Source of the DNA: Dermatophagoides farinae
Taxonomy: Eukaryota; Arthropoda; Arachnida; Sarcoptiformes; Pyroglyphidae
DNA: 64,000 bases
Reading direction: 5' to 3'
Assembly (NCBI RefSeq): GCF_024713945.1
Contig: NC_134680.1
Span: 3,806,001-3,870,000 of the forward strand
Part shown: positions 10,610-15,219 of the stretch, piece by piece
Position numbering within the stretch: position 1 is the first letter of the stretch
Layout of the letters: the number at the start of each line of letters is the position of its first letter
Notes under the pieces: generated by a model
Told to the model about the DNA's origin: nothing
Database searches by the model: none
What the model saw: only the letters and a program-made list of their open reading frames with translations
Program-made: the position numbers and the translations under genes

Positions 10610-10638
10610 ATATTTTGGGTACACAGAAAAGAAAGTAG

Positions 10639-10785
10639 GGTTAGTACTAACCAAAAAAGGTTAGCATTATAACCCAAATTGGTGAGTACTAACCTTAAAA
10701 GGCTAGCGTTGCAGGACGAATAACCCAAAAAGGTTAGTGCTAACCTTTGTGGGTTAGCAATCACCCGAATTGGTTAGCGCTATCC
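10639..10785. repeat. Left subterminal palindrome array of the insertion
   Basis: Tandem palindromic units, each close to GGTTAG(T/C)(A/G)CTAACC, occur at 10639-10652 (perfect), 10681-10694, 10732-10745 and 10772-10785. They are joined by short A/T linkers and AACCC half-sites. The right end repeats the same design, so these are probably binding sites for the element's transposition protein. Confidence 0.7.
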
Positions 10786-11013
10786 ATTATTTTAAAAATT
10801 AATTTTTTTTGTATTATAAGATAAATTATTATTATTAATAATCAATAAATTAATATTTGTAGTGAAAAATAAATCAGAAAAATAATTTTCGAGCAAAACA
10901 ACAGAGTAATCGATACATAATGAAATCAATTTATAACTAAATTATCCAGATTTATTATTATTTAATGAATATTATATCAAATACCGAAATGTAATTATCA
11001 AAATTTTAAAAAA

Positions 11014-11330
11014 GATGGTCATCATAAATCACTTTGGAGTGCGAAACAACGATGATGATAGCGATAATGATCAAGATGGTCATCCAATTCAACAATCAAT
11101 GGCTACAAAAATGGCCATCATGAATCGTAATAATCCTGCTACAATGATTGATTCATCATCATCAATCGAATGATACACCAAATATGATGATAATGTCGCC
11201 ACAATTACAGCATCATAATTTTCAACGCCATCAACAACAACAACGGAATAATGTACATGTGCCACCAAGTTTTTTAATCTGTAATCATTCATCCATGAAT
11301 GCAAATATCCCACCACCATCATATCATTGA
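11014..11330 (+). pseudogene. Q/N/H-rich coding-like fragment with a frameshift
   Basis: From the ATG at 11014 a frame runs about 52 codons (through NNDDDSDNDQDG and QQSMATKMAIMN) to a stop near 11172. The same compositional style then continues in another frame to 11330 (PQLQHHNFQRHQQQQ). This looks like one low-complexity coding stretch broken by a frameshift, possibly a captured piece of a host gene. Such composition also arises from CAT/CAA-rich simple sequence, so confidence is low. Confidence 0.25.
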
Positions 11331-11859
11331 GATAATCAAACTATTGAAGTTAACATGTCAGCAAAATCTGAATTGAACTCGAATTAAATAATCAAATATA
11401 TGCAGATTGACAATAGTAGTAACGTTATTGTTTTTGAATTCAACTTTGATTCAATTTTGTTGGTCATTATTTCGGTCTCATAAAAACCAAACATTTTTCA
11501 AAATTGATATATGTCAGGGTTTTGTTTTGTTTCTATGAAAATCATAACAATACCAAAAATGGAAATTGAAATGATCGATTAAACATCCGATCATCAGAGG
11601 ATGTGGTGAACTCCAGTAAACATCGAAATGGAGAATTTCAATAAATGTAACAACATCCTATCATACAACAAATGATATATTACCAGAATGATAATGTGGC
11701 ATTTGTACATCCAATTGTTAAATCAAAACAAATTATGAATCTAAAATTATTATAAAAGCGAATTTTAAATAATAATAAGGCACGATATTTTTTATATTTG
11801 AAAATTATGTGTTATTCTCGTCTATTTTAATAATCCAGCAAGATTATCAAGTATTTGAT

Positions 11860-12390
11860 ATATATTTGTTTTTACTGGGTGCCATTTCATTCTTGTATTA
11901 TTGGCAATGAATTGGCTGACCAATATGTAAAAGATTTTTCTTATATTTCTCACAATCTTCGTCCAATTTCTTTGGCTTAATATCTATTGAAAAATATAGA
12001 ATAAGATGGATAATGAGTGAAGATGGCAAAGTTACTAAAAAAATTCTTCCATCTGTATATGATCGTAAAATAATTCTTATTGATCTACATTTTGTGTTCA
12101 CTCAGTTTTTATCGGGACATGGAAAATTCAATGTTTACCTGCATAAAATTGGCTATCGTTATAAGTCGTCTTGTTTTTGTGGTAATTTGTGTTCAAAGTT
12201 CTATTCATTTGATTTGTTTATTTGTTGCTGAACGAACTTTAATTGAAAATCAATGTGGTGTAAATCTACATGAAGAGAATTTATGTATTTGGCTATAATT
12301 CTTTAAATATGATTTTAAAAATTTATAATTTATTTTCTTCCACCATCTTTGAGGTATAGGGGTTTTTATTGAATAAATAAATAAATAGCT
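11860..12390 (+). mobile_element. Decayed LINE (non-LTR retrotransposon) ORF2 3' remnant: RNase H plus C-terminal region
   Basis: Three successive frames carry pieces of one ORF2 C-terminus. From 11876, WVPFHSCIIGNELADQY matches the RNase H consensus WVPGHSGIxGNExAD with two glycines lost, then hits a stop. From about 11970, RWIMSEDGKVTKKILPSV leads into FTQFLSGHGKFNVYLHKIG and CFCG, the typical LTGHG...YLhkiG...C.CG tail of jockey/I/R1-type elements. A third frame continues with HLICLFVAERTLIENQCG to a stop near 12298. An (AATA)n run at about 12370-12390 resembles the simple-repeat 3' end of I-like elements. It is 5'-truncated, frameshifted and inactive, and nested inside the TIR element. 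Confidence 0.72.
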
Positions 12391-13302
12391 CGACTTTGAA
12401 TGAAATAACAGTCCATCAATCAATCAATCCTGACAAATTGACACCAATTTATCAAACAGTGGTGAAAATTCTTTGGCTCAAATCACTAATCATCAACATG
12501 TGATAAAGGTCAATTTTTACGTTCCATTGAAATTACATTATAATTTTTTTCACCAATTATGTAGCTGATATGATAATATCTATCATATAAGTTGATTTTT
12601 TATTCATTTTTCATGCTAAATCTATGGCAAAAACAATGCATTCATTTTGCCGCCTAAAATTCTAAAGTCCAAATAATGAGAAACTGCGCATAGTCAAGCA
12701 GTGGTAGTGTAGCTAACTATTTTCAATGCAAATGCTGCGCGCTTCTTTTCCCCTTCTATTCCCATACAAATTTGAATTTGATCGTTGGAAAATCGAACAT
12801 TAAAATTCAACGGTCGTCGAAGACGGTTGTCCTCACTCAACTTTTCGCTATTTTTCGTGATATTTTTTTCATTTTTTTCTATTTTAATCGTGGATTTTTG
12901 CGCTAACTTTTGGAACAAAGACTTTTATCGATTCAAGATTATCTTTGTTCATAGTTATTGTGGTCTAAGATCAAAAATTGGCTCCGAAATCGATGAAGAT
13001 CGTTTGGTTCGGTCATCATGTAATCATGATACAAGTTGGCGAAAAAATCCCATTTTCGATGACTTTCAAATGTATTTATGACATTTTTTTTTCACCAAAT
13101 TGTATTCATTCACATCCTTTTCAAGTTTTCTTTTTCAGAGTCCATTATTATAATTGATGTAGGATAATTGGAATCCAGATTAATATATGTGAAAACATGG
13201 TCAATGAGGTAATTTACATTTTGCCTTAGATTGAAAATGCTAACAATTTTCCTTGTCTTTTGAAGCATAAAATTTTCATTGATGATCAATGATCATCATT
13301 AG
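12391..13302. other. AT-rich interior of the insertion, no recognised gene
   Basis: A 98-codon frame at 12785-13081 begins with ATG and contains a hydrophobic run and an R-rich patch, but resembles nothing I know. Poly-T and poly-A runs dominate. I cannot support a gene here. Confidence 0.4.
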
Positions 13303-13695
13303 ACATATAATTGGTGCCGTCTTTATAAAAACGATCATGGTAATGATGCCGAACATTACAAATTTATTGGTGGATATCTGGTCACTAACATGGTACGATG
13401 TCTAATGAAACTTTCAGGTAACTTTCTAATTTCGCTATCGATCAATGATTCTAACACTTACATTTCTCAAAGGCCTGAATTGGATTGGATTGTTGGAGCA
13501 ATTATTCGGTAAGTCGGCATATTCATTCTTCATATCTAATAAAGACTGGTCTATCTTTTTTTATTAGGTTTGTTCCTGAAATTTTACAATCATCAAATTG
13601 AAATTCGATTGATGATTATGTTCGAGATCAATTCGGCGGTTCCATTGTTCATCAGCATTCAATTCAAGAATAGTTTGACCATGTTCAACACATGA
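13303..13695 (+). CDS. Unrecognised spliced coding region inside the insertion
   Basis: Three exon-like blocks are joined by plausible short introns. The first, after ..CATTAG at about 13302, reads WCRLYKNDHGNDAEHYKF and continues to ..MKLSG with a GTAAC donor near 13419. The second reads LNWIGLLEQLF with a GTAAG donor near 13511. The third, after a T-rich acceptor near 13567, reads LFLKFYNHQIEIRLMIMF.. and stops at about 13695. The blocks are mutually in frame and have ordinary amino-acid composition, unlike the surrounding DNA. No domain is recognised. It may be the element's own gene, cargo, or a pseudogene; start and end are not established. Confidence 0.35.
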
Positions 13696-13779
13696 TAACA
13701 GGTTAGGCTAGGGTTAGATTAGGCTTAGGAACATGATCTGAGCTATTTCCTATTGAATTTGATGCTGATTGAATCTTTG

Positions 13780-14184
13780 GAATCAATGAAGCGATCGAAA
13801 ACATAATTATAAGTCGAAGATTCATTGGATGGAACACATACTTGAAAGTGATCATGGTAAGAAAATGAATAGATTAATTAAACAAACAACTATATAATAT
13901 TTATCTTCACTTAGGATCGTCGGCGAACAATTGGGAAATTGAATCTCGAATCACGGATAGAATTTGGACATTGTCTTGTAACATGGACCGCGAATATTGG
14001 ATCTATTTCAAATGATCATGGTAAGCAAATGAATAGATTAATTAAACAAACAACTAATATTTATCTTCACTTAGGATCGTCGGCGAACAATTGGGAAATT
14101 GAATCTCGAACCACGGATAGAATTTGGACATTGTCTTGTAACATGGACCGCGAATATTGGATCTATTTCAAACGGGACAATTAA
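13780..14184 (+). pseudogene. 3' exons of an unrecognised gene in the insertion, disrupted by duplication
   Basis: An upstream block reads KIHWMEHILESDH and, via a 58-base intron (13857-13914), joins exon copy 1 in the frame GSSANNWEIESRITDRIW, which ends at a premature TGA (about 14012). Exon copy 2 (from 14075) carries the same peptide to a natural-looking end at 14184. Because the exon unit is 106 bases, splicing through both copies would read copy 1 in a different but also open frame before copy 2. It may belong with the coding blocks at 13.3-13.7 kb. No family is recognised. Confidence 0.3.
13850..14173 (+). repeat. Tandem duplication of an intron-plus-exon unit (about 162 bases x 2)
   Basis: Copy 1 (13850-14013) and copy 2 (14014-14173) are nearly identical: I count three substitutions and one 4-base indel. 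Each copy begins GATCATG followed by a GTAAG donor, runs through a 54-58-base intron-like segment ending in CTTAG, and then an exon reading NWEIESR.TDRIWTLSCNMD. Copy 1 reaches a TGA where copy 2 continues with RDN and a stop. The few differences imply a recent duplication. Confidence 0.85.
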
Positions 14185-14426
14185 CGTTGTATGGCGCAAT
14201 TGGGATGTGAAATATGGATGTATTTTATTATTTCTAATATTTTAATAAATTAATATTTCAATAAAATCAATTAAATTTCAATATATATCGATTAAATTAA
14301 TATGGGGGGTAAAGGGAATAAAAGGGGGTCAAAATTGCTGCAACAATCGTGTGATGAACGACACAATCGATGATTTCGATATATCGTTGCAACAATCGGC
14401 TGGCAAAATTGCTCATAACCCAAAAA

Positions 14427-14488
14427 GGTTAGTACTAACCGTAGAAGGTTATTTTTTGTCGATAAACCCAAATGGGTTAGTACTAACC
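14427..14488. repeat. Right subterminal palindrome pair of the insertion
   Basis: Two perfect copies of GGTTAGTACTAACC (14427-14440 and 14475-14488) are separated by 34 bases and preceded by AACCC half-sites. Together with the left array they place these palindromes only at the two ends of the 3.9 kb insertion in this window. Confidence 0.7.
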
Positions 14489-14520
14489 TTTTTACTTTCT
14501 TTTCTGTGTAGTCGAAGAAC

Positions 14521-15219
14521 ATGATGATGGAGAAATTGTTTGCTGATGCGGAATGGAAATTATTGTTCCAAGGAGCCGAGTCACGTGTTTTTGAGGGTAA
14601 CTATCAATCACAACGAGCCATTCTTAAGGAACGTTTTCCAAAACGATATCGACTGGTCGAACTTGACGAAAAGCTGACCAAGGAAAGAATTCGGGCTGAA
14701 ATTAAAGCTTACACAAAACTATCTGCCAAATGTGATCCAGATCTATCGAATGTTTTGCCTTCAGTTCTCTTTTCGGATAATCGTCATATAATTCTCACTC
14801 GAATCGATAATGCCTGCACGCTCAACTTGTACATCAGTGAACGTCAACAGCAATCCGAATCGATTGAACGAGTATTGATAACATTGGCTAAATTAATTGC
14901 CAACATACATTCGATCGGGTTAATACATGGAGATCTCACCACATCCAACTTTATGGTCATCGACAGCCAGCCACCACAACCTAAACATCAAAGCTTAACC
15001 ATAATTCCCATCGATTTTGGCCTTTCATATTCATCCAAAACTGACGAAGATCGAGCTGTCGATCTTTACGTGTTGGAACGAGCTATCCAGAGTACACATC
15101 CAAACGTCGATATTAATATCTTTTTACGAGAATACCAAACCCAAATGGGTACCGACAAAATTAACAAACGCTTAGATCAAGTTCGGTTGCGTGGTCGTAA
15201 ACGTTCAATGATAGGTTAA
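14521..15219 (+). CDS. TP53RK: TP53RK/Bud32/PRPK atypical kinase of the KEOPS complex
   Basis: Intact 232-aa single-exon small kinase. Lysine AILKERF (K36) is in the N-lobe, the catalytic loop is IHGDLTTSN (135-143), PIDFG holds the DFG (165-167), and DEDRAVDLYVLERA follows. The strongly conserved C-terminus VRLRGRKRSMIG is diagnostic of Bud32. The family supports t6A37 tRNA modification with Kae1/OSGEP in KEOPS. Length fits the family. The first three codons are ATG ATG ATG; I use the first. The 5' boundary is unusual: the TIR of a transposon-like insertion ends 10 bases before the ATG, so the native 5' UTR and promoter are displaced or replaced. AATAAA overlaps the stop (15219-15224), and the convergent TMEM245 gene ends 56 bases away. 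Confidence 0.95.
   Translation: MMMEKLFADAEWKLLFQGAESRVFEGNYQSQRAILKERFPKRYRLVELDEKLTKERIRAEIKAYTKLSAKCDPDLSNVLPSVLFSDNRHIILTRIDNACTLNLYISERQQQSESIERVLITLAKLIANIHSIGLIHGDLTTSNFMVIDSQPPQPKHQSLTIIPIDFGLSYSSKTDEDRAVDLYVLERAIQSTHPNVDINIFLREYQTQMGTDKINKRLDQVRLRGRKRSMIG

Follow-up and report, generated by a model that had tools for sequence, protein, structure and literature searches.

What kind of mobile element lies directly in front of the Bud32 gene of the mite Dermatophagoides farinae, and how may the gene stay expressed behind it? The locus falls within a 64,000-nucleotide stretch of assembly GCF_024713945.1 (NC_134680.1; hereafter the window, C4:3806001-3870000, with C denoting contigs and L loci), in which an element of ~3.9 kb spans 10622-14508 on the plus strand. 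A first-pass annotation had described a perfect 16-base terminal inverted repeat (TIR) with TA on both sides as well as shared subterminal palindromes, and our comparison agrees: the 18-nt arms at 10620-10637 and 14493-14510, each comprising the 16-nt TIR plus TA, are 100% complementary (18/18 nt), with 3855 nt between them. The left TIR, CACAGAAAAGAAAGTA (10622-10637, plus strand), emerged from inverted-repeat comparison and has 0-mismatch genome matches; the right TIR occupies 14493-14508 on the minus strand, and the two TA of the target-site duplication lie at 10620-10621 and 14509-14510. Next to the TIRs are palindromes of the sequence GGTTAGTACTAACC or near variants, three on the left (10639-10745, at 10639-10652, 10681-10694 and 10732-10745) and two on the right (14427-14488, at 14427-14440 and 14475-14488). 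The right end had also been placed correctly with respect to Bud32, with the element ending at 14508, followed by TA at 14509-14510 and then by 10 bases (12 counting the TA) up to the ATG at 14521. This KEOPS kinase gene (14521-15219, plus strand) is an intact 232-aa open reading frame, scoring 131.2 bits against TIGR03724 arch_bud32 (cut-off 125), and its single match in the genome is itself. The element is a transposon-type insertion with a target-site duplication, and we surmise that it is probably a non-autonomous cut-and-paste transposon of the CACTA-like kind (CACTA/EnSpm, CMC).

Much of the evidence for this reading comes from other copies, a search for which proved fruitful. Across the genome (62,435,336 bases in 22 contigs), the 16-mer TIR has 51 matches at up to 1 mismatch vs. 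18 for a reversed control, and the whole element finds at least 82 matching pieces. Both ends could be resolved in 18 copies and one end in three others (L014, L020 and L046), yielding 21 sites. The TIR, CACAGAAAARAAAGT, is the same or nearly the same across three end types that differ in the subterminal palindrome, which is GGTTAGTACTAACC in type A (the window copy), CGCGAGTACTCGCG in type B and TGGAGACNNGTCTCCA in type C. These ends sit on a common body, as window 11966-14399 (plus strand) is present in all four B copies compared, and most of it recurs in the C copies L031-L033, which contain window 11048-11512 together with 11785-14371; shorter right-hand parts of the window element are found in the C copies L041, L042 and L020. 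Within type A, the closest relative of the window copy is L013 (95% identical, with a match along the whole length), while the middle of the element is absent from L009 and L018, and L012 shares with the window copy ~0.9 kb from the right-hand part as well as short matches at the left end. L016 (1484-1534, type A) and L074 (7545-7595, type C) are micro-elements of 51 bp that consist of the two TIRs and a single palindrome, with 2 bp duplicated (TA and CA, respectively); by eye, they look like left and right ends fused at the common palindrome, as in an internal deletion between repeats. At the other extreme, L049 (type B) owes its extra length to an uninterrupted frame of a long terminal repeat (LTR)-type retroelement together with a frame that is Tc1-like (each identified by eye).

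The TA duplication had been taken as the hallmark of Tc1/mariner, a view that did not survive the comparison of target sites. Of the 12 A and B copies in which the two ends are resolved, 10 have flanks matching at 2 bp: TA in the window copy, L016, L021 and L023/34 (the last also at 4 bp), AT in L013 and L050/51, AA in L018, TT in L012 and L025/35, and a poly-T match in L009 that extends to 3 and 4 bp. The 2-bp duplication is absent from L010, which has no match and one decayed end, and from L038/24, which has no match at 2 bp. The type C copies match at 3 bp in 5 of 6 cases (ACA, TTA, AAT, GAT and TTT), with the TTT of L042 matching at 1 bp and 2 bp as well; the match in the type C micro-element L074 is at 2 bp. 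By chance, a copy would match in 7.3% of cases at 2 bp and in 2.0% at 3 bp, and the length of the duplication goes with end type (Fisher p=0.0076 on 16 of the 18 copies, the two copies without a match having been dropped and L009 and L042 entered as 3 bp). Because other copies duplicate AT, AA, TT or 3 bp, the TA found in front of Bud32 represents just one of the sequences that a 2-bp duplication can produce and is no Tc1/mariner hallmark. We therefore rejected membership in that group and regard a Tc1/mariner-type element as very improbable: the likeness consists of TA at the window site and three other copies and of the Tc1-like frame in L049, but this frame lies inside a region missing from the other B copies compared, and the mite family, with its 3-bp duplications of ACA, TTA, AAT and GAT, is not restricted to TA. 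Nor was a transposase domain found in the window element. The first-pass annotation had found no DDE transposase in it, and this stands after comparison of all 30 stop-to-stop frames of at least 45 aa (16 on the plus and 14 on the minus strand) with Pfam, none of which reached cut-off; the element may be non-autonomous.

The features seen at the ends point instead to CACTA/EnSpm. The termini read CAC..GTG, with CAC at both ends in 16 of 18 copies (the exceptions being L010, with its one decayed end, and L016, with TAC at one end); the 2- or 3-bp duplications are of unfixed sequence; and subterminal short repeats, a feature of plant CACTA elements, take the form of palindromes here, which flank the window copy on either side internally to its TIRs and recur in end types B and C. 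In the extracts of PMC12730594, the CACTA-Mirage-Chapaev-Transib group is given mostly CA..TG termini with duplications of 2-5 bp, and CAC..GTG with 3 bp is treated as consistent with EnSpm. A portion of PMC6004678 describes CACTA elements of animals that have CAC..GTG termini and duplicate 2 bp, and a portion of PMC4298943 another animal CACTA element, in which the duplication is likewise of 2 bp but the termini are CCC. The passages of PMC6004678 on CMC-NA_1/2 and ENS1_Cis of Ciona describe the same combination of CAC..GTG and a 2-bp duplication as in the mite family, and the CMC-NA elements, like the window element, are without a transposase; in contrast to the elements of those passages, the mite copies are longer (up to ~4.4 kb without large nested inserts) and have three end types with differing palindromes on a common body, one type with 3-bp duplications. 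The genome also encodes CACTA transposases: PF02992 Transposase_21 is above cut-off at C1, C5 and C9 and below it at C7, while 0 of 14 control genomes match. Two of these loci, C1:3952044-3954821 (L075) and C5:1078006-1080783 (L076), are uninterrupted 926-aa CACTA transposase frames that are identical across 3,408 bases, which suggests recent movement or duplication. We postulate that a transposase of this type, recognizing the CAC..GTG ends and the subterminal palindromes, would have mobilized the element in trans, and that insertion into the Bud32 leader or promoter would have created the 2-bp duplication.

We call the CACTA/CMC assignment likely but not proven, because no significant long DNA match links the transposase loci to the family (a single match of 29 bases near L021 falls outside the element) and no TIR match among those listed adjoins these loci, which are known here from their frames alone; together with the lack of a detectable transposase in the window element, these points weigh against it. 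The same observations would fit a family from a different or undescribed group of DNA transposons that by coincidence has CAC..GTG at its ends and duplicates 2 or 3 bp, a reading that might also accommodate the 141-aa open frame conserved among type B copies (L021:4390-4815, minus strand), which has 11 genome matches, some near the ends of C3 and C7, and no Pfam or NCBIfam match; by eye, a 99-aa frame at L010:4003-4299 is possibly related to it. We consider this alternative unlikely, since the combination of ends and duplications agrees with the CACTA features reported in the literature extracts cited above and since CACTA transposases reside in the same genome. The earlier suggestion of an undescribed family is accordingly plausible at the level of the family only, the ends and duplications fitting a known group. 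In open-licence literature we found no description of this mite family and no paper combining Dermatophagoides, transposable elements and CACTA. In the part of the D. farinae assembly paper available (PMC11074847), DNA transposons total 55,004 bp, and 17 measured copies of the present family together span 51,566 bp; set against each other, these figures indicate that most of the family may have escaped annotation in that paper.

The position in front of Bud32 is not peculiar to the window copy. A Pfam-supported gene start lies within 250 bases at 7 of the 21 sites, vs. a random expectation of 4.3% of sites, or ~0.9 of 21 (10,709 genes in 62.43 Mb; p=1.8e-5, or 1.4e-4 with coding sequence excluded), in a test where flank was available at 38 of 42 sides, the reading was not blind and part of the flanks was scanned with Pfam. 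L009 sits between an RRM gene (119 bases) and a cyanase (127), and L010 between a fructosamine kinase (38 bases) and a BTB gene (201); L012 is 55 bases upstream of a glycosyltransferase 2 gene that we take to be DPM1 (first exon by eye, domain in the next exon), L041 is 200 bases upstream of a DUF383 gene, L042 is 151 bases upstream of a lipoyl-domain gene (by eye, with the domain in the following exon), and the micro-element L074 is 186 bases upstream of a gene for a double-stranded RNA-binding protein. In addition, the frames faced by L020 (10 bases), L032 (83) and L036 (67) are 183-328 aa long and have no Pfam match. A mechanical test with the window as background gave 8 of 21 sites for frames of at least 100 aa (15% expected, p=0.009) and weakened with shorter frames (80 aa, 9/21, p=0.044; 60 aa, 13/21, p=0.078). 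Copies are thus near gene starts more often than in both backgrounds used, which may reflect insertion preference or survival bias. We also noticed a MiaB-like t6A methylthiotransferase gene (TIGR01578; L011:1638-2756, minus strand) near element pieces; it belongs to the same tRNA-37 pathway as Bud32, which is likely a coincidence.

How, then, might Bud32 stay expressed? The mechanism that we prefer, with confidence about evenly divided, is that the element is spliced out as an intron of the 5' leader. Judging from sequence, transcripts would begin at the old promoter to the left of 10620, the left palindromes would supply the donor (at 10640, 10682 or 10733), which would be joined to an acceptor at 14481-14511, and a 9-nt leader (14512-14520) would remain before the Bud32 ATG. 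The candidate acceptor (plus strand) comprises the branch-point motif TACTAAC, then the pyrimidine-rich TIR, then a TAG whose TA is that of the duplication and whose G is the host base that follows; across both strands of the 64 kb, this site is the only one to combine TACTAAC, a tract of at least 80% pyrimidines and YAG, and the combination appeared in 0 of 20 Markov simulations. Donor-like matches in the left palindromes are GTTAGT at 10640 (5/7 of the consensus), GTGAGT at 10682 (5/7) and GTTAGT at 10733 (6/7), with 6/7 matches also at 14428, in a right palindrome, and at 13418. Genes next to other copies offer some parallels, as pyrimidines followed by CATGTAG terminate two introns in the DPM1-like gene, resembling the TGTGTAG at the element end, and the lipoyl-domain gene by L042 seems by eye to use the donor AAAAG/GTTAGT, like the palindrome donors. 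An unspliced leader is unlikely to work, given the 99 ATGs on the plus strand of the element.

Two observations weigh against splicing. Each of the seven A copies has TACTAAC at both ends, and at 10 of these 14 ends a YAG follows within 40 nt of flank after the motif, making the AG alone weak evidence; and the branch-point motif is restricted to end type A, so that it may have arisen incidentally, within a palindrome that binds transposase. Where a start codon lies within 250 bases of a type A right end, as it does in four copies, the YAG comes at 25 nt in the window copy, 25 in L010 (where it is a CAG created by the decayed end), 39 in L012 and 60 in L009, the last spacing being long for an acceptor. 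As a rival to splicing, the last ~150 bp of the element may carry, or may have created, the Bud32 start site, with the old promoter left of 10620 disconnected. A start site at the right end would yield a usable leader, because the three nearest ATGs upstream lie at 14354, 14370 and 14472, and the third of them opens a frame of 2 aa; the 12 bases separating the element from the ATG and the several other copies that abut gene starts are in keeping with such promoter capture. It leaves the acceptor-like unit unexplained, however, and we view it as possible but somewhat doubtful.

Splicing-out of the element as a leader intron would bring it close to introners, which, in the extracts of PMC9860276, have DNA-transposon-like ends with TIRs and duplications and can take one splice site from the target duplication. 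Splice signals lying in the element or completed by the duplication are present, by sequence, in the window copy and in type A only. In contrast to the introners of those extracts, the window copy lies before a start codon and not in a coding exon, is known from sequence alone, and at 3.9 kb exceeds the family medians of 30-654 nt. Many of the examined copies are near gene starts, and in the flanks as read none was shown in a coding exon; the micro-element L016, considered as a coding-exon introner, was rejected as it falls outside every open frame of at least 80 aa. We speculate, while deeming it on balance rather unlikely, that this is an animal CACTA family in which the palindrome GGTTAGTACTAACC doubles as a splice signal (donor G/GTTAGT, branch point TACTAAC) and the TIR as the pyrimidine tract, creating a leader-specific introner that would be spliced in either orientation, with the target duplication or the flank supplying the remainder of the AG.

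Several further features were seen in and around the copies. Within the window element there is a 145-bp tandem duplication (13868-14012 and 14028-14172; 92% identical, spacing 160 bp), shared by L013. Its Pfam hints below cut-off include a weak, possible fragment resembling the end of RNase H at 11834-11977 on the plus strand (PF00075, E 0.067, 13.8 bits vs. a cut-off of 25.8), AGOG (E 0.06), DUF7652 (0.069), DHH_CID (0.11) and Serinc (0.17), and in an Rfam scan of the window 0 families reached the gathering score. Left of the type A end at L014, exon pieces resembling DNA topoisomerase II (699-1459; C4 ~236,698-237,458; best PDB match E 7.8e-22, DNA_topoisoIV 1.1e-7) represent either a captured gene fragment or a neighboring gene. 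Beside a type A left end, L071 has inverted arms related to L012 (1444-3113 and 5955-7594) with Ig-like frames, by eye, between them. No recognized transposase was seen in the open frames of L071-L074, near unpaired ends, or of L068-L070, near divergent homologues of the B-type frame, which were read by eye without a Pfam scan.

With these data, a Tc1/mariner reading of the element gives way to a CACTA-like family, in which duplications of 2 vs. 3 bp that track end type on a common body offer a handle on how CACTA transposases set the stagger of their cuts. End types with the same body but without the branch point are a natural control for the splice-signal reading, and the Bud32 site, where a tRNA-modification gene with a single match begins 10 bases beyond the element, allows a clean test of the tolerance of a large transposon. 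If true, a leader-specific introner would let large insertions persist before essential genes.

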